From positions 1 through 35,120 of IMG/VR virus record IMGVR_UViG_3300036800_000259: DNA of 35,120 nt. One strand, 5' to 3'. Within the stretch, counting starts at the first letter, position 1; the number at the start of each line of letters is the position of its first letter. The notes under the pieces are model-generated. The model ran no database searches. It was given only the letters and a program-made list of their open reading frames with translations, and had not been told where the DNA came from. The DNA comes from a virus. Made by a program: the position numbers and the translations under genes. Positions 3,104-31,235 of this stretch are shown piece by piece.

Positions 3104-3526
3104 ATGCTTCGTTCTGTTCTCATAGCGTTGCTCAGCATTGTCTCACTGTTACTGTTCACGCCTAGCGCTTCGGCGGCGACGTCGACGTTTCGTGATGTAG
3201 CGACGCTGCACTGCCTGGACTCGAATACGTCAGGCAATGTGTATGCGATCGGCTGCAATGGCGGCAACTTCCAGAACTGGATTAGTTCTGGTACGACCAC
3301 TACAGTTCGTGATGTCTCTACGCTGTTCTGTCTCGACTCGAATACCAATGGCAACGTCTACACACTGCCGTGTAATGGCGGCAACTTTCAGAAGTGGCGA
3401 GTAGAGCGATCAGGCCATCGCGTCGTTGATGTGGCTACCGGTCGCTGCCTCGACTCGAACACGGCTAACAGTGTCTACACTCTTCCGTGTAATGGTGGTA
3501 ACTTCCAGAACTGGTATCATAATTAA
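3104..3526 (+). CDS. secreted ricin-type beta-trefoil lectin, 140 aa
   Basis: Residues 1-24 are a signal peptide (basic start, hydrophobic core, ASA cleavage site). The mature part is three repeats of exactly 39 residues (29-59, 68-98, 107-137), each with RDVAT-x-x-CLDSNT, N-x-VY, CNGG and NFQ(N/K)W. The FQxW motif is the hallmark of ricin B/R-type lectins. The paired Cys 14 residues apart in each repeat (37/51, 76/90, 115/129) suggest one disulphide per lobe. A complete trefoil in a mature protein of about 116 aa is minimal. It is predicted to be exported and to bind carbohydrate. A GGGGGGAG ribosome site lies about 9 nt before the ATG. The gene stands alone between leftward genes, which fits a lysogenic-conversion or moron gene; its role for phage or host is unknown. 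Confidence 0.85.
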   Translation: MLRSVLIALLSIVSLLLFTPSASAATSTFRDVATLHCLDSNTSGNVYAIGCNGGNFQNWISSGTTTTVRDVSTLFCLDSNTNGNVYTLPCNGGNFQKWRVERSGHRVVDVATGRCLDSNTANSVYTLPCNGGNFQNWYHN

Positions 3527-5552: not shown

Positions 5553-5598
5553 AGTCTACCACACTTTATCTCATACTGCACTATTACCACTCGAATGG
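5553..5598 (-). promoter_or_regulatory. leftward cassette promoter, long class, with leader
   Basis: -10 TAGACT (5553-5558) with TGTGG and GTGCAGT at long-class spacing and a distal CACTCGAATGG block. No start codon occurs 6-7 nt downstream. The first ATG with a ribosome site is at 5513, so this copy makes a leadered transcript. The sequence after -10 (TTCAGGTAGAAG) is shared with the copy at 7725. Confidence 0.75.
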
Positions 5599-5833: not shown

Positions 5834-5853
5834 CACTCTCATCACCTGAATGG
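5834..5853. repeat. remnant of a promoter cassette
   Basis: CACTCTCATCACCTGAATGG resembles the distal half of the long-class cassettes, but the -10 and GCAGT parts are absent. It lies just after the 62-aa gene, in a gap without a leftward start codon, and reads as a decayed or deletion-fused copy. Confidence 0.5.
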
Positions 5854-5910
5854 AGTACTGAAGAGACTTGTAGATCTTTATGCTATGTTGAGTGAACGTT
5901 CAACGAAGAA

Positions 5911-5934
5911 ATCCCCCGACCGAGATCGAGGGAT
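5911..5934 (-). terminator. leftward rho-independent terminator
   Basis: 9-bp stem with one mismatch (5911-5919 with 5926-5934, loop CCGAGA), followed on the minus strand by TTCTTCGTT. It ends the leftward gene that stops at 5948. The 16-nt U-tract side (AACGAAGAAATCCCCC) recurs at 5602-5617 without the other stem arm. Confidence 0.75.
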
Positions 5935-5947
5935 GACTTCTGAATAG

Positions 5948-6178
5948 CTATTTACGTGCTGTTTTCCAGGCTGGTTGGAAGCGAACTAATTTTGCTTTCT
6001 TGTTACGTGAGTAGCTCTTTGGTTCTGCATCTTTGGCGCATAGATGGCAAGCGGTGAGTGTAAGCGGCGTTCCTTTGAGTGAGTTAATGGTGACATTAGT
6101 GGTTCCTATATTGTCACATTCCATCGGAATTCCGAGTTGACACTTCTCGCCTGGTGTGACTCCCTTGTTTTCGCTCAT
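5948..6178 (-). CDS. small Cys-rich protein, 76 aa, leaderless
   Basis: The ATG at 6178 is chosen because it is 6 nt behind a cassette -10; an ATG 18 nt upstream would lie within the promoter. The product MSENKGVTPGEKCQLGIPM has ECDN and CHLC (two zinc-ligand pairs, about residues 13-21 and 44-47) and a basic C-terminus (RNKKAKLVRFQPAWKTARK) suited to nucleic-acid binding. Function unknown. Confidence 0.7.
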   Translation of the reverse strand: MSENKGVTPGEKCQLGIPMECDNIGTTNVTINSLKGTPLTLTACHLCAKDAEPKSYSRNKKAKLVRFQPAWKTARK

Positions 6179-6230
6179 AGTCTTAGTGTAGCACACTCTA
6201 CCTCATACTACACTACTACCACTCGAATGG
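6179..6230 (-). promoter_or_regulatory. leftward cassette promoter, long class
   Basis: -10 TACACT (6185-6190), TGTGC upstream, GTAGT(A) block 11 nt further, distal CACTCGAATGG. Six nt to the ATG at 6178. On the plus strand the cassette ends in TGGAG, the ribosome site for the TTG start at 6238. Confidence 0.8.
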
Positions 6231-6237
6231 AGCACTG

Positions 6238-6585
6238 TTGTCTGACCAGTGGCAGGTGCTCTATGGATCACCAGAGGGAGCGTGGCTGGTGCTGCGAGGC
6301 TCGTACGGACGCGTGCCGCCCGGTGACATCGCCGGCCTGGCATTGCTCGGTGAAACTGGTGACATCATCCGCGGCGTGCTGACATTCCGTATGTCTACGA
6401 TGAGCCGGCACGGCGACACACGCTCGGACCTGGCCGGCTACGTGCGCCGCACGTTCGCCGCTGAGCTGGGTGTTGATGAGGCCAAGCTGGTGGAGTACGC
6501 AGACGACCGGACAGTTCCGTCACTGTCGTCCACGGGTTGGTCGAAGCTGGCGAAAGCTTACTGTTTCATCTCAGCTTCAGTGTGA
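6238..6585 (+). CDS. hypothetical protein, 115 aa, TTG start
   Basis: The TTG start lies 6-7 nt behind the TGGAG supplied by the cassette. The product begins SDQWQVLYGSPEGAWLVLRG and has mixed alpha/beta character without Cys pairs. Strong GC-biased codon use contrasts with the neighbouring small genes. It is followed by a bidirectional terminator. No family recognised. Confidence 0.7.
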   Translation: MSDQWQVLYGSPEGAWLVLRGSYGRVPPGDIAGLALLGETGDIIRGVLTFRMSTMSRHGDTRSDLAGYVRRTFAAELGVDEAKLVEYADDRTVPSLSSTGWSKLAKAYCFISASV

Positions 6586-6586
6586 A

Positions 6587-6613
6587 GTCCCCGACCATTA
6601 TCTGATCGGGGAC
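6587..6613. terminator. bidirectional terminator between convergent genes
   Basis: Perfect 8-bp inverted repeat GTCCCCGA/TCGGGGAC with an 11-nt loop, located 2 nt after the rightward stop and 7 nt before the end of the leftward gene. Confidence 0.7.
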
Positions 6614-6619
6614 TGAAGA

Positions 6620-6859
6620 TTACCTCTTGGCTAGCCAGTTCTGCGCACTTCGCACGGCGTGGCTACGGTGCGGTCGAGCTGACAGATCGCTACTTTCGAT
6701 TCCTTCTGCGAAGTCAGGAGCCCAGGTCTTCGCGTACCAGAGGCCAACTGGCTCTAGTCCGGGCTGGCAGCCACCTTGAGCGTCGAAGTGAATTTCGGCC
6801 CATGCTCCGTTAGCGTTGGTGTACCGGACTCCGGTTTCGAGGTTTTCGCTCTTTCGCAT
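6620..6859 (-). CDS. hypothetical protein, 79 aa, leaderless
   Basis: ATG 6 nt behind a cassette -10. Product MRKSENLETGVRYTNANGAW has Trp/Ala-rich segments and an Arg-rich C-terminus (SHAVRSAQNWLAKR). The first codons (MRKSE) are shared at DNA level with the start at 8242, so the repeated cassette reaches into the coding region. No family recognised. Confidence 0.7.
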   Translation of the reverse strand: MRKSENLETGVRYTNANGAWAEIHFDAQGGCQPGLEPVGLWYAKTWAPDFAEGIESSDLSARPHRSHAVRSAQNWLAKR

Positions 6860-6911
6860 AGTCTAAGTGTAGCACACTCTACCTCATACTGCACTGCTAC
6901 CACTCGAATGG
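6860..6911 (-). promoter_or_regulatory. leftward cassette promoter, long class
   Basis: -10 TACACT (6866-6871), TGTGC, then GCAGTGCAGT at long-class spacing, and the distal CACTCGAATGG. Six nt to the ATG at 6859. The TGGAG at its right end serves the GTG start of the HNH gene. Confidence 0.85.
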
Positions 6912-6920
6912 AGTACTTGG

Positions 6921-7250
6921 GTGGTCAAGACTGGGCCTGGTCGCACCACGGGTACGTGGCAGCGGCTGAAGGCAGAGACGCTGGCCTGGTCTGCGCTGCA
7001 TCGCAGGCCGTGCTACTTGTGCCGGCGACCGATCGACTACGCGCTCACGCAAGTCCAGCCTAACCATGGCCAGGCGGCTACGGTGCATCACATCGTAGGC
7101 TTAGAGCAGGGTGGCGCGCCGGAAGATCCGGCAAACCTGGCAGTAGCTCACCGCGGGTGCAACACGCGGCACTCTAACCGCTTGCGTGGGCTGGCCAGCG
7201 CACGCCGCAAGTCGCTAGCTGCGCTAGCGACTTGCTCACGTAGGTGGTGA
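6921..7250 (+). CDS. HNH endonuclease, 109 aa
   Basis: HNH nuclease with the zinc-stabilised beta-beta-alpha-metal fold: CYLC (31-34), catalytic HH (56-57) in ATVHHIVGLEQGG, Asn72 in DPANLAVAH, and GCNTRHSNR with Cys80 and His84. Such phage HNH proteins usually lie beside the terminase and assist DNA packaging and cos cleavage. Here the terminase genes are 7.5 kb away, separated by the accessory block, which suggests that block was inserted between them. GTG start 8 nt behind the TGGAG of the cassette. The 3' end overlaps the leftward gene at 7236 by 15 nt. Confidence 0.9.
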   Translation: MVKTGPGRTTGTWQRLKAETLAWSALHRRPCYLCRRPIDYALTQVQPNHGQAATVHHIVGLEQGGAPEDPANLAVAHRGCNTRHSNRLRGLASARRKSLAALATCSRRW

Positions 7251-7815: not shown

Positions 7816-7971
7816 TCACAAGCTGATCAAATACCGGCTGTCGGCAGTACACGCGGCACACCACTTCGCGTTGCCCTGAGTGCAACCACAGCCGCGGGCT
7901 TCACGGGCGTTGAGTGCACGGTTGATTTCTTTGCTGGTCTTGCGGAGCTGGGCTGTGGTGAGCTTGCGCAT
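7816..7971 (-). CDS. small Cys-rich protein, 51 aa
   Basis: GAGGAG lies 6 nt before the ATG. The product MRKLTTAQLRKTSKEINRAL is a basic helix followed by GCGC and CAAC, a probable zinc site near the C-terminus. It has a leader of about 30 nt behind a short-class cassette promoter. Probably nucleic-acid binding, judged only from charge and Cys pairs. Confidence 0.65.
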   Translation of the reverse strand: MRKLTTAQLRKTSKEINRALNAREARGCGCTQGNAKWCAACTADSRYLISL

Positions 7972-8674: not shown

Positions 8675-10099
8675 CTAAATGATCTTGTGATAGTGCTTCG
8701 CAAGAACGCGTCGAGTCATCGCGCGGTAGCGGCGTGTCGAAGCAGGCCAAGGATTGACCACGCGGCCGGTAGCGGTCTTGTACCAGCTACGGCAGCTCCC
8801 CTGCCACACAGTATGCCGAAGGTTGTCTGCTAGCCAGCGCCGGTAGCCTTCCATTGCTTCAGCAGTGACTTCCACCGCAGAAGATTCGAGGCAGCGCAGC
8901 ACATAGCGCGTCTGACATTCGATCATGAAGATATTGCTGTTGTGTCCGAGAATCGTGTTCGGTCCGTGGACAAGGAACATATTCGGGAAGCCTGGCAGGG
9001 TCATGCCGAGATAAGCCTCAGCACCATTGCGCCACTGCTTGTGTAGGTCAATGCCGTCTCGACCGCGCACGTCCAGCGGCACCAGAAACTCTGAGGTTTT
9101 GAAGCCGGTAGCATAGATCAGCGCATCTGCGTAATGATGCCATCCGTCAGTGGTGACAACACCTGTTTCAGTTAGTCGTTTGATAGGTTCTGCGATCAGC
9201 TCGACGTTGGACCGGCACAGCGCGGGGTAGTAGTCGGAGTCGATGACGATCCGCTTGCAGCCGATCTCGTGCTGTGGAGTCAGCGCAGCCCGCAGCGCGG
9301 CATCGGGGACTTGACGGTGCAGGTGCCAGCGTGCCAGCCAGGCCAGCGGGCGAACAGTCCAGCCGCGGGTGAGAACTGGCGTGAGCAGTGTGTCCGCAGC
9401 CAGCCAGGTGCCAGCTCGATAAGCAGTGTGCAAGCCAGGAGTCCAGCGCAGCAGCGCTGCGGTTGCTTGGCTGAACTTCTGGGCTGGTTTGGGCAGGACC
9501 CAGTTCGGGGTGCGCTGGTAGACGTCGACCTGGCCGGCGATTTTCGCTAGTTGCGGCACGAGCTGAGCCGCACTGGACCCGGTACCGATCACAGCGACAC
9601 TCTTGCCGGTCAGATCGAGGTCGTGATCCCAGTGTGCGGTGTGGAATGACGGACCAAAGAATATGCCAGGTAGTTCTGGCGTGTACGGCCGGTGCAGCTG
9701 GCCGACAGCGAAGACCACGGCGTCAGCAGTGCAGGCAAAGCCGTCTAGCGATCTCAGTACCCACAGCGTGCCGTGCCACACAGCAGACATGATCGGCATA
9801 TCGCACCAGATATGCGGGCGAAGACCGAAGTCATCGGCAACTCGGCAGAGGTAGTCCAGGATCGCTGGTTGTTTCGGATACCGAAGCTGGGCATTCCGAT
9901 ACCGGGCGAACGAGAACGAGTAGAGATGACTCGGCACATCGCAGCCGCACCCTGGGTAGGTGTTCCACTGCCAGATGCCGCCGACTTCACTGCCTTTCTC
10001 GAACACCACGAAGTCATCGATACCAGCTTTCTTGAGCTGGACAGCCATACCAAGGCCGCCGAAGCCGGCACCGATAATCGCTACCCGCCAGTGCTTCAT
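8675..10099 (-). CDS. flavin-containing monooxygenase, type I Baeyer-Villiger type, 474 aa
   Basis: FAD- and NADPH-dependent oxygenase. Visible are the FAD Rossmann motif GAGFGG (10-15), EVGGIWQWNTYPGCGCDVPSHLY (39-60, typical of BVMOs), the BVMO fingerprint FxGxxxHxxxW(P/D) at 147-158 (FFGPSFHTAHWD), the NADPH Rossmann motif GTGSSAAQ (172-179) and the ATGF motif (YATGFKTSEF). Family members insert oxygen next to a carbonyl or oxidise S or N atoms; the substrate here is unknown. Its ATG overlaps the stop of the DUF2063-like gene (ATGA), so it is made together with the MNIO enzyme. Length is normal. It is unusual in a phage. Confidence 0.88.
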   Translation of the reverse strand: MKHWRVAIIGAGFGGLGMAVQLKKAGIDDFVVFEKGSEVGGIWQWNTYPGCGCDVPSHLYSFSFARYRNAQLRYPKQPAILDYLCRVADDFGLRPHIWCDMPIMSAVWHGTLWVLRSLDGFACTADAVVFAVGQLHRPYTPELPGIFFGPSFHTAHWDHDLDLTGKSVAVIGTGSSAAQLVPQLAKIAGQVDVYQRTPNWVLPKPAQKFSQATAALLRWTPGLHTAYRAGTWLAADTLLTPVLTRGWTVRPLAWLARWHLHRQVPDAALRAALTPQHEIGCKRIVIDSDYYPALCRSNVELIAEPIKRLTETGVVTTDGWHHYADALIYATGFKTSEFLVPLDVRGRDGIDLHKQWRNGAEAYLGMTLPGFPNMFLVHGPNTILGHNSNIFMIECQTRYVLRCLESSAVEVTAEAMEGYRRWLADNLRHTVWQGSCRSWYKTATGRVVNPWPASTRRYRAMTRRVLAKHYHKII

Positions 10100-10251: not shown

Positions 10252-11101
10252 AGATAGCTCTAGCTTTGTCTAGTTCGGTCACTAGTTCAGGAAAGCTAGG
10301 AATATTCGAGTCCCACTCCAGCAAAGTTGGCAGGTACTCACCCAGCGAAGTGCTGGCGTAGTGCTGAGCAAGCCGGTACAGCGACCATACTTCAGAGATC
10401 ACTGGTCGATCATGCGTATCGATCAATATCCCGCTGAAATCGTCGGTAAGATTCACCGCTGGGTTTAGCGGTGATTCACTGTGGCCTGCAATATGTAGGT
10501 AGGCGACAGCGCTCATCGGGAAGTTCTGGAGATACTCGATCGGGCTGCGTCCCTGGTTGTGCGCAGTGACGTAGGCGTTGTTCACGTCGAGCAGCAGACT
10601 GCAGCCGGTGCGGCCGATGAGGCATTTCAGAAACTCGGTCTCAGTCATCTCAGATGCTGACCACTGGATGTAGCTACTCGGGTTCTCCAGTACGAGTGGC
10701 CGGTCCAGGTACTCCTGCACCGCGTGCACCCGGCTGGTGACGTGCGCCAGTGTCTCTTCAGTGAGTGGCAGCGGCAGCAGGTCGTGGGTGTCGACGCCGG
10801 CCACGCCAGTCCAGCACAGGTGATCAGAAATCCACCGCGGATTGGTTTGCTGAGCAAGGATCTTCAGCTTGTGCAGGTAGTCGAAGTCTAGCGGGTCGGT
10901 ACCACCGATGTTCAGCGAGACGCCATGCAGCGCGATCCGCTTGTGCGCCAGGATTCTGGCCAGCACTCGGGAGCCAAGGCCGTCGAAGAAGTCTTCTGAG
11001 ATGATCTCGAACCAGTCGACACCCCACTGTTCTGACGGTGTGGTCATCAGGTAGTGGTGGTGCGGCCAGCGCAGCCCGACGCCGAAGCTGAGATTATTCA
11101 T
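10244..11101 (-). CDS. DUF692 multinuclear non-heme iron oxidase (MNIO), 285 aa
   Basis: TIM-barrel oxidase of the MbnB/TglH/BufB family, which uses two or three iron ions to oxidise Cys residues of peptides (to oxazolone-thioamide, thiooxazole, or by carbon excision). Nearly all family signatures are visible: GVGLRWPHHHY (8-17), DWFEIISEDFF (29-39), LHGVSLNIGG (58-67), ISDHLCW (91-97), LLPLPLTEE (108-116), LENPSSY (138-144), CSLLLDVNNAYV (167-178), YLHIAGH (201-207), IDTHDRP (227-233), EVWSLY (237-242), LLEWDSNIP (260-268). The usual His, Asp and Glu ligands are all present. The start at 11101 overlaps the stop of the wHTH gene (ATGAATAA); the longer frame upstream is antisense to conserved wHTH coding and is rejected. 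A phage-encoded MNIO is unusual. Confidence 0.92.
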   Translation of the reverse strand: MNNLSFGVGLRWPHHHYLMTTPSEQWGVDWFEIISEDFFDGLGSRVLARILAHKRIALHGVSLNIGGTDPLDFDYLHKLKILAQQTNPRWISDHLCWTGVAGVDTHDLLPLPLTEETLAHVTSRVHAVQEYLDRPLVLENPSSYIQWSASEMTETEFLKCLIGRTGCSLLLDVNNAYVTAHNQGRSPIEYLQNFPMSAVAYLHIAGHSESPLNPAVNLTDDFSGILIDTHDRPVISEVWSLYRLAQHYASTSLGEYLPTLLEWDSNIPSFPELVTELDKARAICG

Positions 11102-11525
11102 GCTCACCAGCTTCTTGACGATGCTGCCGTGCCAGCGCACGGGCACTATTTCGATTGTCAGCGCAAGCTGACCAACCACAGACACATACTGCTTTAGACG
11201 CTTGACTGACCAACATTACTCGATCACGCCCGTTGGGCCGGAATCGCATGTCCATCTCATTACTGAGAAGGAACGTGCGTGTCTTGTGTTGAGCAGGTAG
11301 TGGGAATAAAGCAATAGCATTCCATCCAGCATGAGTAATGTGATCTGTTAATCCATAATGTATAGCAAGCCCAAGTTTAGCAAGTCGGTTGAACACCTGT
11401 GTCGAACAGCGGATTCGTCCATGGTCATCTACAGAGTCCAACGCTCGTATCATAGCTGGAGTGATCTCGCTGATGGAGAATATACCCATTGAGCTGATAA
11501 AAGTGGTGGCGTTGGTTTTGCTCAT
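11094..11525 (-). CDS. winged-helix protein with C-terminal Cys motif, 143 aa, leaderless
   Basis: Residues about 17-75 (ISEITPAMIRALDSVDDHGR, CSTQVFNRLAKLGLA, LTDHITHAGWNAI) fit a small winged-helix DNA-binding domain. The C-terminus VCVCGWSACADNRNSARALARQHR resembles the short CxCGW zinc/treble-clef motif of actinobacterial phage proteins. The ATG is 7 nt behind a short-class cassette -10, and the stop overlaps the MNIO start, so it is the first gene of the MNIO-DUF2063-monooxygenase operon. A role as local regulator, possibly of the cassettes themselves, is an inference. Confidence 0.75.
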   Translation of the reverse strand: MSKTNATTFISSMGIFSISEITPAMIRALDSVDDHGRIRCSTQVFNRLAKLGLAIHYGLTDHITHAGWNAIALFPLPAQHKTRTFLLSNEMDMRFRPNGRDRVMLVSQASKAVCVCGWSACADNRNSARALARQHRQEAGEHE

Positions 11526-11556
11526 AGTTCAGACACTACCACATACTGCACTGTCA
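11526..11556 (-). promoter_or_regulatory. leftward cassette promoter of the MNIO operon, short class
   Basis: -35 TTGCAT, 17-nt spacer GACAGTGCAGTATGTGG, -10 TAGTGT (11533-11538), 7 nt to the ATG at 11525. One of the best -35/-10 combinations among the cassettes. Confidence 0.8.
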
Positions 11557-11562
11557 TGCAAC

Positions 11563-13407
11563 TCACGTTGCCGGTGGTAGTACGAGACGAAGATCGTTGG
11601 GTGGCTCTGCTTCACCTAGTTCTGAACCTTCGAGGTACTTGTAAGCACGTATCGCTACTTCGTGCACTGGCTCTCCCTTAGCAAATTTCATCTGATCAAC
11701 TGGCTGACTGTCGTTGTCGTAAAGTTGCATCGTCCCGCTCTGCACGAGCAGCTGGGATGCTGCGATCGGGACTGCACAGCCGCCCTGGCCGGCGCAGGCG
11801 TTGGCACTGGGAGCGCTGAACAGGCCATTGGTAGCGGCTTTGGCCTTCACTGCAGCGAAGCCATGCTGGCCAGGCTGCGCAGCGCTGATCTTCTGTACGA
11901 AGCCACAGCCGCCTTGACCAGCGCAGTTGTTCGCGCCGCGGCAGGAGTGGTAGACCCCGATCGCAGCGCAGGTGTTGCCTGGCTCTGTCAGGTTCAGGCC
12001 CTGGCAGGCATGCGCAGGCCTACTGACAGAGCCAGTGTCAGCGCCTACTGACAGGTCTGGCGGCAGTTCGAACAGCGCCCAGCTCATGGTCATCCGGTCA
12101 CCGGAGCCGACCATCGCCGGGTAGGGGAAGATCACATCAGGACCAGCCCAGTATTGGTTGAGTACAGTTGTGATGCCGGCCAGCGAGCCTACCGCGGCCT
12201 GGTTGAACAGTGGTCGCATCAGCTCAGGTGATGAGGCTATGCGGTTCATCGCATCAGCGACGTCAACAGCACTGGGGATGTCGTAGAGACTGGGCGCCGT
12301 CTCTCCAGGTTGCAAATCGTCAGCTGTCCACGGACCATGCTCCTGGTGCCAAGCTGGCCAGGTTGTCACCTGATCGATCATCTCTAGCAGAGTAGAGAAT
12401 CGGTCGTAGTGGTCCCAGTCTCCGTAGGTGTAACGAGCCACCGCATCGGCTGAGGGAGCCAGCTCTCCGGTATCACTGTACGAGGGGTAGTCGGCTTCCA
12501 TCGCTGTTTGATCTGCTTCGTATTGTGTCGCTACTTCTGACGGGTCATCAGAACGCTGGTCAAGTACGGAGCCCTCGCCTTGGTCGGTAATGGCGTTCAT
12601 CATCGCTAATGCTTGTGAGTACGCTTTCGCTGGGTTAGCTGTGGTAATGAGAGTCCGAAAGCCGGTGTACTCTTTCTGAGGATGGCCGGTGTTCTCGACA
12701 TTGAACAGATCATTCTGCTGGGAGTCGGGAACGAATACGTGATCCCAGAGTGTCAAACCATCTTCATAGACGAAGCTCAGATACTCGTAATAGCATGAGT
12801 ACATCCAGCCGATAGTGCCGAACATCGGCAGGTCGACTTCGGTCATCTCTTCAGTCCAGCCAGCAAATGGCACAGCGGGAAAGTATTTCTCGGGTGCGGT
12901 GATATGACTTTGAGACGTTACTTCGGACTCTTCGATGATCAGGAACAGCTCTAGTTGAGTAGCTGTGAGGCCATCGATTCTTACCATGGATTCGTGGTGC
13001 ACAGTGTCTTTCAGATCTACGACATGCGGTATGACAGAGCTGTCGTAGCAGGTCCAGCCGTACTGCTCATCCTGCAGCACTGGTGAGGTGAACAGCGGTG
13101 TCACGCCGATGGCGCTGGCAAGATTGGCAGCGAGCTGTAGATGTAACATCTCTTCGACATGCACTGAGAACATGAGATTGTAGGCAGTCTCGTTGGCGGT
13201 CTGCGGGCTGGCTGTGGTCGCCGCTCCTGGCCACCAGCGGCCGGTGTAGAAGTTGCTGTCCTTGCCCGTGATCTGGTGCATGTCGGCGATTGAGGTAGCA
13301 GCGGCGAGGTACAGCGGGATGGTGAACAGTTCGACGTTGACGCATGCTTGGGCGATGGCGCGCACCGCAGCGGCATCAGCGGATCTAGCAGAGACTGGCC
13401 TTGTCAT
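11563..13407 (-). CDS. VioB/ferritin-like protein with Cys-rich C-terminus, 614 aa; candidate MNIO substrate
   Basis: The N-terminal part is a ferritin-like four-helix domain of the iminophenyl-pyruvate dimer synthase (VioB) type: VNVELFTIPLYLAA (23-36) and HVEEMLHLQLAANL (83-96) carry the usual Glu and ExxH iron ligands, and GDWDHYDRF (329-337) and EESE (159-162) are further candidates. The C-terminal part holds seven Cys (468, 480, 489, 495, 501, 538, 544) in the motifs HACQGLN, NTCAAIG, HSCRGANNCAGQGGCG and NACAGQGGC. Such Gly/Asn-flanked Cys are typical of peptides modified by MNIO enzymes; an MNIO gene lies 0.5 kb downstream. The start overlaps the methyltransferase stop (ATGA). The VioB fold is well supported; the substrate role is an inference. 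Confidence 0.8.
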   Translation of the reverse strand: MTRPVSARSADAAAVRAIAQACVNVELFTIPLYLAAATSIADMHQITGKDSNFYTGRWWPGAATTASPQTANETAYNLMFSVHVEEMLHLQLAANLASAIGVTPLFTSPVLQDEQYGWTCYDSSVIPHVVDLKDTVHHESMVRIDGLTATQLELFLIIEESEVTSQSHITAPEKYFPAVPFAGWTEEMTEVDLPMFGTIGWMYSCYYEYLSFVYEDGLTLWDHVFVPDSQQNDLFNVENTGHPQKEYTGFRTLITTANPAKAYSQALAMMNAITDQGEGSVLDQRSDDPSEVATQYEADQTAMEADYPSYSDTGELAPSADAVARYTYGDWDHYDRFSTLLEMIDQVTTWPAWHQEHGPWTADDLQPGETAPSLYDIPSAVDVADAMNRIASSPELMRPLFNQAAVGSLAGITTVLNQYWAGPDVIFPYPAMVGSGDRMTMSWALFELPPDLSVGADTGSVSRPAHACQGLNLTEPGNTCAAIGVYHSCRGANNCAGQGGCGFVQKISAAQPGQHGFAAVKAKAATNGLFSAPSANACAGQGGCAVPIAASQLLVQSGTMQLYDNDSQPVDQMKFAKGEPVHEVAIRAYKYLEGSELGEAEPPNDLRLVLPPAT

Positions 13408-17213: not shown

Positions 17214-17360
17214 ATGCCGTGCTCCGAAGATCAGACTGCACTGTGCTTTAGCTGCACAGACGTCCAGCATCTGGAGACAGAGCTAGCGCATTTACAGATC
17301 TTGCTGGCTGTGTTCGCGTGGCCCTGGCCAAAGCTGCTGCAGGGGAGCGACATTTCGTGA
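17214..17360 (+). CDS. hypothetical protein, 48 aa
   Basis: ATG behind AAGGGAG. The product MPCSEDQTALCFSCTDVQHL has three Cys and continues as a helix (ETELAHLQILLAVFAWPWPK). Its stop overlaps the portal GTG (GTGA), so it probably serves translational coupling to the portal gene. No family recognised. Confidence 0.55.
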   Translation: MPCSEDQTALCFSCTDVQHLETELAHLQILLAVFAWPWPKLLQGSDIS

Positions 17361-18583
17361 GCTTGCTATTCCGGACAGCCAATATCGAGGGGCCGTACTT
17401 CGGCGAGTTCCCCGGTGCGATGGCCTCTGATGTGATCCCACATCGGCTGAGTATGCAGCTTGCACCGGGTCACATGATCAACAACGACTCGGCACTACGG
17501 CACTCAGCGGTCTGGGCTTGCTTGCGGTTACGCGCGAACCTGATCTCGACGTTTCCGATCGACTGCTACCGCAAGGGTCAGTACGGCATCGCTGATGTTG
17601 AGGTGACCAAGCCACCGATCCTGATCAACCCTGGTGGTGAGTGCGTCGACTACATGGAGTGGATGTACAGCACACAATTTGACCTTGATCGTGCCGGCAA
17701 CAGCATCGGCCTGATCACCGAACGCAATGGCTTCGGCCTGCCGGCTGTGATCCAGCTAGTGCCGCTGGCCTGGGTGTCGGTGAACATCGTGGACAACGTG
17801 CTGGTGGAGTACTTTATCCGTGGTCATCCTTACCCTCCGCGGCAGATCTGGCACGAGAAACAGTACACAGTCGCAGGTTTTCACTTAGGGCTGTCTCCGA
17901 TTATGTATGCTGCCTGGAGCATCGGTGAGCACTTGAGTATTCAGGATTTCGCTATCTCTTGGTTCACTAATGGTGGTATCCCGCGTGGTCATCTGCAGAA
18001 CACCATGCTCCCGACACCAACTCGTGACCAGATGCGCGATGTTAAGGCGTTGGTGAAAGAATCAGTGAACAGCGGTGATGTGCTGGTCACTGGCAAGGAC
18101 TGGGAATACAATATGGTTCAAGCCGAACAGACGGGAATGGAATGGATCGAAGCTCGCAAACTTGGCCCCACTGAGATAGCGCGATTCTTCGACTGCCCTT
18201 CTGACTTGATTGACTCAGCTATTTCTGGGTCAAGCGTAACTTATGCGAATGTGACTCAGAGAAACTTGCAATTCCTAACAATGAGTCTCGGGCCAACAAT
18301 TATTCGTCGTGAGAATAGCTTGAACAAGCTATTGCCTAATCGCCAGTTCTGCAAGCTGAACACCAAAGCGTTGTTGCGTATGGACCCACTGACGCAAGCA
18401 CAGATCATCAATCTTCAGGTAGCTGGCCGCGTGCTCACCCCGTCTGAAGCTCGCTTGCTTGACGATCGGCCACCACTGACCGCTGCGGACAGAGCTGAGT
18501 TCGACCAACTGTGGCCGCCACGTCCGCAGCCTGGACCGACAACACCATCGCCTACCGCCCCTGTACCTGCTGAATCTGAGTAA
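17357..18583 (+). CDS. HK97-type portal protein, 408 aa
   Basis: Dodecameric portal through which DNA enters and leaves the head. Family hallmarks are HSAVWACLRLRANLISTFPI (about residues 50-69), the central LDRAGNSIGLI region, the NGGIPRGHL loop and the GMEWIEARKLGPTEIARFFDCPSDLI block, followed by a Pro-rich disordered tail. The GTG at 17357 overlaps the upstream stop and has AGGGGAG 9 nt before it, so it is preferred over a GTG at 17318. Confidence 0.9.
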   Translation: MSLLFRTANIEGPYFGEFPGAMASDVIPHRLSMQLAPGHMINNDSALRHSAVWACLRLRANLISTFPIDCYRKGQYGIADVEVTKPPILINPGGECVDYMEWMYSTQFDLDRAGNSIGLITERNGFGLPAVIQLVPLAWVSVNIVDNVLVEYFIRGHPYPPRQIWHEKQYTVAGFHLGLSPIMYAAWSIGEHLSIQDFAISWFTNGGIPRGHLQNTMLPTPTRDQMRDVKALVKESVNSGDVLVTGKDWEYNMVQAEQTGMEWIEARKLGPTEIARFFDCPSDLIDSAISGSSVTYANVTQRNLQFLTMSLGPTIIRRENSLNKLLPNRQFCKLNTKALLRMDPLTQAQIINLQVAGRVLTPSEARLLDDRPPLTAADRAEFDQLWPPRPQPGPTTPSPTAPVPAESE

Positions 18584-30538: not shown

Positions 30539-31194
30539 AGCTGCTGGATCAGGAATCGACCGATGTATTCAGCGTATGTAGGTGGTATTGCTTCGTTGAG
30601 TTCGTCTTTGGTCATCCAGTCTATGCCCATCGCACGACTGGCATTGGCGACAGTGCAATTACCGCCACCGTTGACGGAGACGAATGACGTATTCTGATCC
30701 ACCTTGCCGTATTGGCTCTTACGCTTGTCATAGGTGAATACCAGCGGATGTGGTCGAACGCAAGGGCGATTGGGAATGATGATGTTCGACTCGAAACCCC
30801 GATGCCTGATCACGGATAGCTCTGAGAATGTGGTGCCGCACAACCATATTGGATCGATCAGCGGCGCACCCTCGACATTCTCGATTACGTAAGGCAGTCC
30901 AGTGGCTCTCATTGCCTCACGCATCGGAGTCAACAAATCTGGCCATGCTGATGCGTTACCGTTACGTTTGGCCAGGTCGGAGAATCGTTGACACGGTGGT
31001 GATCCGTGGACGGCATCGAACTCGTGATGGTTTTCTTTCAGAAACTCGATTGCGTCGTCTTGATGAAACTCGTCTCCGATGTATCGGGGTTGGTTCTTGA
31101 TGTCGACACCGGTCACATGGAAGCCGGCGAGTTGGTAGCCACGAGCACTGCCGCCAGCACAACAGCACAGATCGAGTAGTCGAAGTTTTCTCAC
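30535..31194 (-). CDS. C5-cytosine-type DNA methyltransferase, 219 aa, leaderless GTG start (insertion module)
   Basis: SAM-dependent DNA methylase. Motif I LLDLCCCAGGSARGY (6-20), catalytic motif IV HGSPPCQRFS with Cys68, motif VI VIENVEGA (ENV 105-107). The protein is short: the target-recognition region is reduced compared with bacterial C5 enzymes, as in other phage members. The GTG at 31194 lies exactly 6 nt behind the cassette -10; a GTG two codons earlier would overlap the spacer. No restriction partner is adjacent, so it is probably for self-protection of phage DNA. Confidence 0.85.
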   Translation of the reverse strand: MRKLRLLDLCCCAGGSARGYQLAGFHVTGVDIKNQPRYIGDEFHQDDAIEFLKENHHEFDAVHGSPPCQRFSDLAKRNGNASAWPDLLTPMREAMRATGLPYVIENVEGAPLIDPIWLCGTTFSELSVIRHRGFESNIIIPNRPCVRPHPLVFTYDKRKSQYGKVDQNTSFVSVNGGGNCTVANASRAMGIDWMTKDELNEAIPPTYAEYIGRFLIQQL

Positions 31195-31235
31195 TACCAC
31201 AGTGTATCACAGACTGCACTGTCCTAGCAAGGGAG
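31195..31235 (-). promoter_or_regulatory. leftward cassette promoter, short class
   Basis: -10 TACACT (31201-31206), spacer GACAGTGCAGTCTGTGA, -35 TTGCTA at 18 nt, 6 nt to the GTG at 31194. The plus-strand end AAGGGAG serves the GTG of the tail gene at 31240. Confidence 0.85.

Follow-up and report, generated by a model that had tools for sequence, protein, structure and literature searches.

A Cys-rich segment of a phage-encoded ferritin-like protein is a probable substrate of the adjacent MNIO

MNIO enzymes are known mainly as makers of small metal-binding peptides. Their established chemistry is the oxidation of Cys residues, and Cys-rich substrates that are protein-sized or fused have already been described (PMC12452194, PMC13097082); known fusions are Buf1-cytochrome c/FGE-sulfatase, MerC-bufferin and EF-hands (Antoine et al. 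2025, PMC12452194). Adjamnio-I substrates are Cys-rich proteins of 122-293 residues without a signal peptide, which precede the MNIO and occur with PME-type 2 (PMC12452194). Borosins are fused in types I-III and split in type IV (PMC8429565). The locus described here resembles the bufferins and Cu-associated thiooxazole RiPPs (Buf1 DUF2282, Buf2, EGKCG oxazolins/captophorins) in having an MNIO near the BufB group and a likely Cys-rich substrate, and its bacterial counterparts share the substrate-MNIO-DUF2063 gene order. It differs in that the substrate is fused to a ferritin-like protein, carries another Cys motif and has, by inspection, no Sec signal peptide; DoxX was not seen as a conserved neighbour in the bacterial loci, and the phage copies lack DUF2063.

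The window, that is, the whole stretch of DNA analysed (35,120 bases), comes from a linear virus record of the same length. Profile searches identified its terminase and portal as clear phage genes. The terminase is closest, at no more than 36% identity, to those of an uncultured phage and of Rhodococcus and Mycobacterium phages, from which we infer that the host is probably an actinobacterium. A tblastn search for the MNIO in 50,697 phage records returned no relative, and the same collection held no relative of the ferritin-like protein; given this absence, a phage-borne MNIO is unusual. The genes and protein segments discussed first are these:

11563..13407 (-): ferritin-like (PF12902) protein of 614 aa with Cys-rich core and C-terminal element; PF12902 E 9.5e-20, AlphaFold pTM 0.87
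12034..13407 (-): folded ferritin-like body, residues 1-458; pLDDT mostly above 80-90
11752..12012 (-): Cys core, residues 466-552, proposed MNIO substrate; Cys conserved in 51/51, disordered in the model, profile match to standalone cores
11566..11760 (-): ordered C-terminal element, residues 550-614, ending R-L-x-x-P-P-x-T; pLDDT about 65-86
11094..11525 (-): 143-aa ORF between the ferritin gene and the MNIO, overlapping the MNIO start; generic phage gene
10244..11101 (-): MNIO (DUF692, PF05114); 308.3 bits against a cut-off of 25, domain positions 2-261 of 263
8675..10099 (-): FMO/Baeyer-Villiger-like flavin monooxygenase downstream of the MNIO, phage cargo; PF13738/PF00743

The 614-aa protein meets the requirements for PF12902 membership (71.8 bits, gathering score 22.3) over residues 20-292, and Pfam returned no other family for it, so that borosin membership (alpha-N-methyltransferase) is not met. 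In an AlphaFold model built with 39 sequences the body (residues 1-458) is confident, and its closest solved fold is 3hl1, a Caulobacter ferritin-like protein (TM 0.74 by target). Residues E26, E86, H89, E159 and E278 are invariant in the 39-sequence alignment and are likely diiron ligands, a role inferred from the family. The protein thus shares a ferritin-like body and conserved acidic/His residues with PF12902 proteins such as 3hl1 and VioB/RebD, whereas ordinary members have neither the Cys core nor an MNIO neighbour. It had been assigned to the VioB family. This holds at the level of the domain, PF12902 being the VioB/RebD N-terminal domain, but not beyond it: NCBIfam models gave no match at E values up to 1, and therefore no assignment as a VioB/RebD iminophenyl-pyruvate dimer synthase.

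The original prediction placed seven Cys in the C-terminal part, beyond the end of the ferritin fold, and both points are borne out. Cys 468, 480, 489, 495, 501, 538 and 544 are exactly where it put them, within the near-identical motifs NNCAGQGGC (493-501) and NACAGQGGC (536-544) among others; in the model the folded body stops near residue 458. The three remaining Cys of the protein are at 22, 120 and 205, and the occurrence of seven of ten in the last 163 residues has a hypergeometric p of 0.005. Conservation is stronger evidence than this clustering. The core (residues 466-552) follows the pattern HACQG..C..HSCRGxNxCxGQGGCGF...SAPSxNxCxxxGGCAVPIxASQ; in a set of 51 aligned proteins Cys 468, 489, 495, 501, 538 and 544 are invariant, and Cys 480 is present in 38. 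An additional Cys, in the column of residue 513 (GGGxCG), is found in 48/51 and is missing from the two phage copies. Tail Cys number varies from 7 to 19 among relatives through extra C-G motifs, the Sphingomonas copies having many of these in a Pro/Ser/Thr-rich linker and up to 19 tail Cys. A BufA2 precursor model (NF050166) scored the window tail at an insignificant 8 bits (cut-off 60).

AlphaFold gives residues 460-548 pLDDT values mostly near or below 50, apparently disordered. All seven Cys lie in this low-confidence stretch and none in the ferritin domain, so that structure prediction, one of the two refutation tests set with the original proposal, does not refute it. The Cys segment is not a free end in the model: it is predicted to be a disordered stretch before the ordered element 550-614 (strands 558-563 and 569-575, helix 581-592), which is conserved in relatives and is a possible recognition element, by inference. 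The predicted disorder also bears on a rival explanation, in which the conserved Cys stay unmodified and serve the ferritin-like protein as a metal site or as disulphides, while the MNIO acts on some other, unseen peptide. Disorder of all seven Cys speaks against it, but a metal site made up of unmodified Cys and the invariant His 487, which sits among the core Cys, is not ruled out by such a prediction; AlphaFold cannot model metal sites.

Relatives were collected by a genome scan with two patterns, AQA[CA][VI]NVE and Y[TP]GR[WY]WPG, which lie in the N-terminal domain only, so that the scan was blind to the tail. Fifty loci were recovered, and 48 of them had a ferritin-like protein with the MNIO directly downstream and DUF2063 next; one of the other two is decayed (L053) and one is at a contig end (L054). 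In the decayed locus, from Pseudoalteromonas peptidolytica (5845-7130), an N-terminal ferritin fragment is followed directly by DUF2063, and Cys core and MNIO are both lost. The 51-protein set combines these 48, which come from Actinomycetota, Pseudomonadota, Bacteroidota and Acidobacteriota, with a Pseudoalteromonas plasmid copy and the two phage copies (L003 and the window). Proteins carrying the core have roughly 600-800 residues. An MNIO lies directly downstream of the ferritin-like gene in 51/51 and the DUF2063 partner is present in all 49 bacterial loci; by crude ORF clustering, only the ferritin-like, MNIO and DUF2063 genes recur across phyla. A phosphatidylserine decarboxylase-like gene adjoins the operon in L007, L026, L027, L031 and L046, from three phyla; the gene in L007 (9591-10916) matches PF02666 and PF12588.

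Whether tail and MNIO go together, the other refutation test set with the original proposal, was examined by searching for PF12902 in 394, 369 and 385 genomes of three classes, which yielded 71 matches, a few of them fragments. All seven proteins with a Cys tail were beside an MNIO, compared with 4 of 64 without (Fisher 2.5e-7). Three of the seven lie in the survey centres, chosen for having a tail beside an MNIO; with these removed the count is 4/4 (Fisher 8.6e-5). Both tests ignore species relatedness. The four tailless exceptions (G003, G251, G271, G310) encode a separate core: the tail profile matches an ORF just upstream of the MNIO, and the order in 4/4 is core protein, MNIO, DUF2063, tailless PF12902 protein. 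These separate cores have about 180-215 aa, with the motifs HVCMGLNxC, HVCHGxNxCRGQGGCGY and CxxNGSCAxPIN. Of the 394 genomes of the class concerned, 4 contain a match to their profile, each time together with MNIO, DUF2063 and PF12902; this count leaves out the core that is fused in G003 and a match in G291 that was inspected and rejected as chance; weak matches in G117, G304 and G358 were taken as chance without inspection. Profile comparison of fused and separate cores gave 98.1% probability (E 1.3e-13). The separate core matched BufA2 NF050166 only weakly (E 2.5e-4, best 21.2 bits, cut-off of 60 not met). It resembles the adjamnio-I proteins, although identity with them was not tested and PME-type 2 is reported there (PMC12452194) versus DUF2063 here.

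The core occurs in both split and fused forms, some actinobacteria encoding it as a separate precursor protein alongside a tailless PF12902 protein. Nothing argues more strongly for the tail being a precursor module than the homologous core that stands alone upstream of the MNIO. Its separate existence also weighs against the unmodified-Cys explanation, as do the 60 of 64 tailless PF12902 proteins that have no MNIO neighbour and the absence of any other conserved Cys peptide next to the phage MNIO; we regard that explanation as very unlikely. The comparative evidence supports the original proposal of a Cys tail fused to a diiron protein as MNIO-modified core, while the modification itself is not shown.

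We therefore favour, with a probability of about 0.75, the reading that residues 466-552 are a RiPP-type core on a ferritin-like diiron protein, whose Cys are oxidised by the adjacent MNIO and whose arm acts with the ferritin-like domain. The MNIO would oxidise several of the six conserved core Cys, a step inferred without mass-spectrometric or biochemical evidence. The products would most likely be thiooxazole-type or oxazolone/thioamide groups, if the chemistry is that of related MNIO enzymes, and in bacteria the DUF2063 partner would present the substrate to the MNIO. The modified arm may then stay on, or work together with, the ferritin-like domain, and would probably serve metal (copper or iron) binding or redox chemistry, the metal role again being an inference. 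Against this reading, the C-x5-C-x5-C spacing differs from that of the characterised EGKCG and DUF2282 substrates.

It is also possible that tailoring involves a second enzyme, the ferritin-like domain, which oxidises the MNIO-modified core in cis or, in the split form, a separate precursor in trans. The invariance of the five candidate diiron ligands and the presence of a tailless PF12902 gene with the separate core in 4/4 split clusters are consistent with this, and borosins, fused and split, show that an enzyme can be joined to its own core (PMC8429565). The borosin likeness, a core fused to the enzyme in some lineages and separate in others, is an analogy only; there the enzyme is an N-methyltransferase rather than ferritin-like, and here the modifier is a third protein, the MNIO. 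No activity is known for the clade, 3hl1, the nearest solved relative, is annotated only as ferritin-like, and the evidence does not separate an enzyme from a carrier or metal store, so this role can be proposed only tentatively.

The phage MNIO shares its His/Asp/Glu motifs with bacterial copies and sits on a long branch. The BufB maturase model NF050167 scored it at 302.1 bits, short of the equivalog cut-off of 310. Its probable start is the ATG at 11101, a longer GTG frame running from 11185. Downstream of the ferritin gene, on the same strand, come the 143-aa ORF, the MNIO and the flavin monooxygenase. The 143-aa ORF was considered as a DUF2063-type partner and rejected: it shows no DUF2063 similarity, shares 39% identity with a stretch of Gordonia phage EMoore that carries no annotation and is replaced in L003 by an unrelated ORF, which makes a partner role unlikely and places it probably outside the modification system. 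Its single-sequence fold, with a pLDDT of only 40, was uninformative. The ORF in L003 (53 aa, 11860-12021) also overlaps the MNIO start, and both may be leader cistrons for MNIO translation. Membership of the flavin monooxygenase is doubtful, with no match in the related viral records G001 and G002. No small Cys ORF that could be a separate precursor near the phage MNIO was common to the window and L003. A 51-aa four-Cys ORF with CGCTQGNAKWCAAC lies at 7816-7971 (-), shortly after a phage promoter repeat; it has no match in L003, L004 or L141. No DUF2063 gene was found in viral records G000, G001 and G002 (G002 only 7 kb), so that in the phage the activity may depend on a host partner or on no partner at all; the DUF2063 gene expected of an MNIO-RiPP with a PME-type 1 partner is missing from the virus records and present in the 49 bacterial loci.

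Dispersed repeats and the methylase gene bear on expression of the phage genes:

14508..14535 (-): repeat of phage promoter type immediately ahead of the methylase gene; exact consensus match
methylase gene (-): overlaps at its end with the start of the ferritin gene (13404/13407)
11526..11555 (-): repeat of phage promoter type immediately ahead of the 143-aa ORF and MNIO; repeat families D3-D5, script scan, promoter role inferred

The repeat, CAGTGCAGTNTG...TGTGGTAG..., is dispersed over window positions 3008-31223, mostly just before the ATG of minus-strand genes (for example 5556-5583 and 31194-31221 (-), besides that before the methylase gene), and occurs also in L003 and L004. Its consensus has eight matches in the window at up to three mismatches, with none expected by chance, and it has the look of a phage promoter that drives leaderless mRNAs, a function we infer. 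The same element precedes the MNIO at the corresponding place in L003 (11832 +). Repeats before the methylase-ferritin pair and the 143-aa ORF-MNIO pair suggest, again by inference, leaderless expression within the phage's own programme. A separate repeat of 104 nt occurs three times at window 3177-3514 (117-nt spacing, 62-72% identity to the first copy), and L003 encodes, at 17346-17768 (-), a secreted-looking protein with three repeats that resemble, by eye only, ricin-type lectin.

A further alternative is that the phage pair is a captured host fragment, functionless because its partner gene is missing. The absence of DUF2063 from the three viral records searched, the long branch of the phage MNIO and the loss from phage copies of one Cys common in cellular copies would fit such a history. 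Against it, four viral contigs (the window, L003, L004 and L141) have the ferritin gene beside the same terminase, L003 also having the MNIO and the other two ending inside the ferritin gene, and phage promoter repeats precede the genes. Comparison of the window with L003 gives a dN/dS of 0.11 for both the ferritin-like gene and its core and of 0.08 for the MNIO, values indicating that all three are under purifying selection. A functionless fragment is, on balance, unlikely.

The idea that a core fused to a ferritin-like protein is a different substrate architecture survives in part. The protein-sized substrates and bufferin domains fused to other domains described by Antoine et al. 2025 (PMC12452194) are precedent for MNIO cores on larger proteins, but those fusions involve MerC, cytochrome c/FGE-sulfatase and EF-hands rather than a ferritin-like protein; no ferritin-like fusion was found in that paper, and ferritin, VioB and PF12902 are absent from its main text. 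A literature search, with supplements and subscription papers outside its scope, found no paper joining MNIO/DUF692 with ferritin-like proteins or VioB, and we found no published description, in the literature searched, of a ferritin-like protein with its own MNIO core. More speculatively, these proteins might define a class of RiPPs whose ferritin-like diiron protein itself bears the MNIO-modified core and works on it or by means of it, as a cis-tailored metal cofactor arm, with fused and split forms in four phyla, and as expressed cargo of an actinobacteriophage lineage without its own partner protein. What is normally a free-standing small precursor peptide is here, it seems, part of a large protein that resembles an enzyme. 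The likely MNIO substrate lies within a large ferritin-like protein, and the split counterpart marks where the module begins; because that counterpart exists in nature, the function of the core, and of the little-understood PF12902 proteins, is directly testable.
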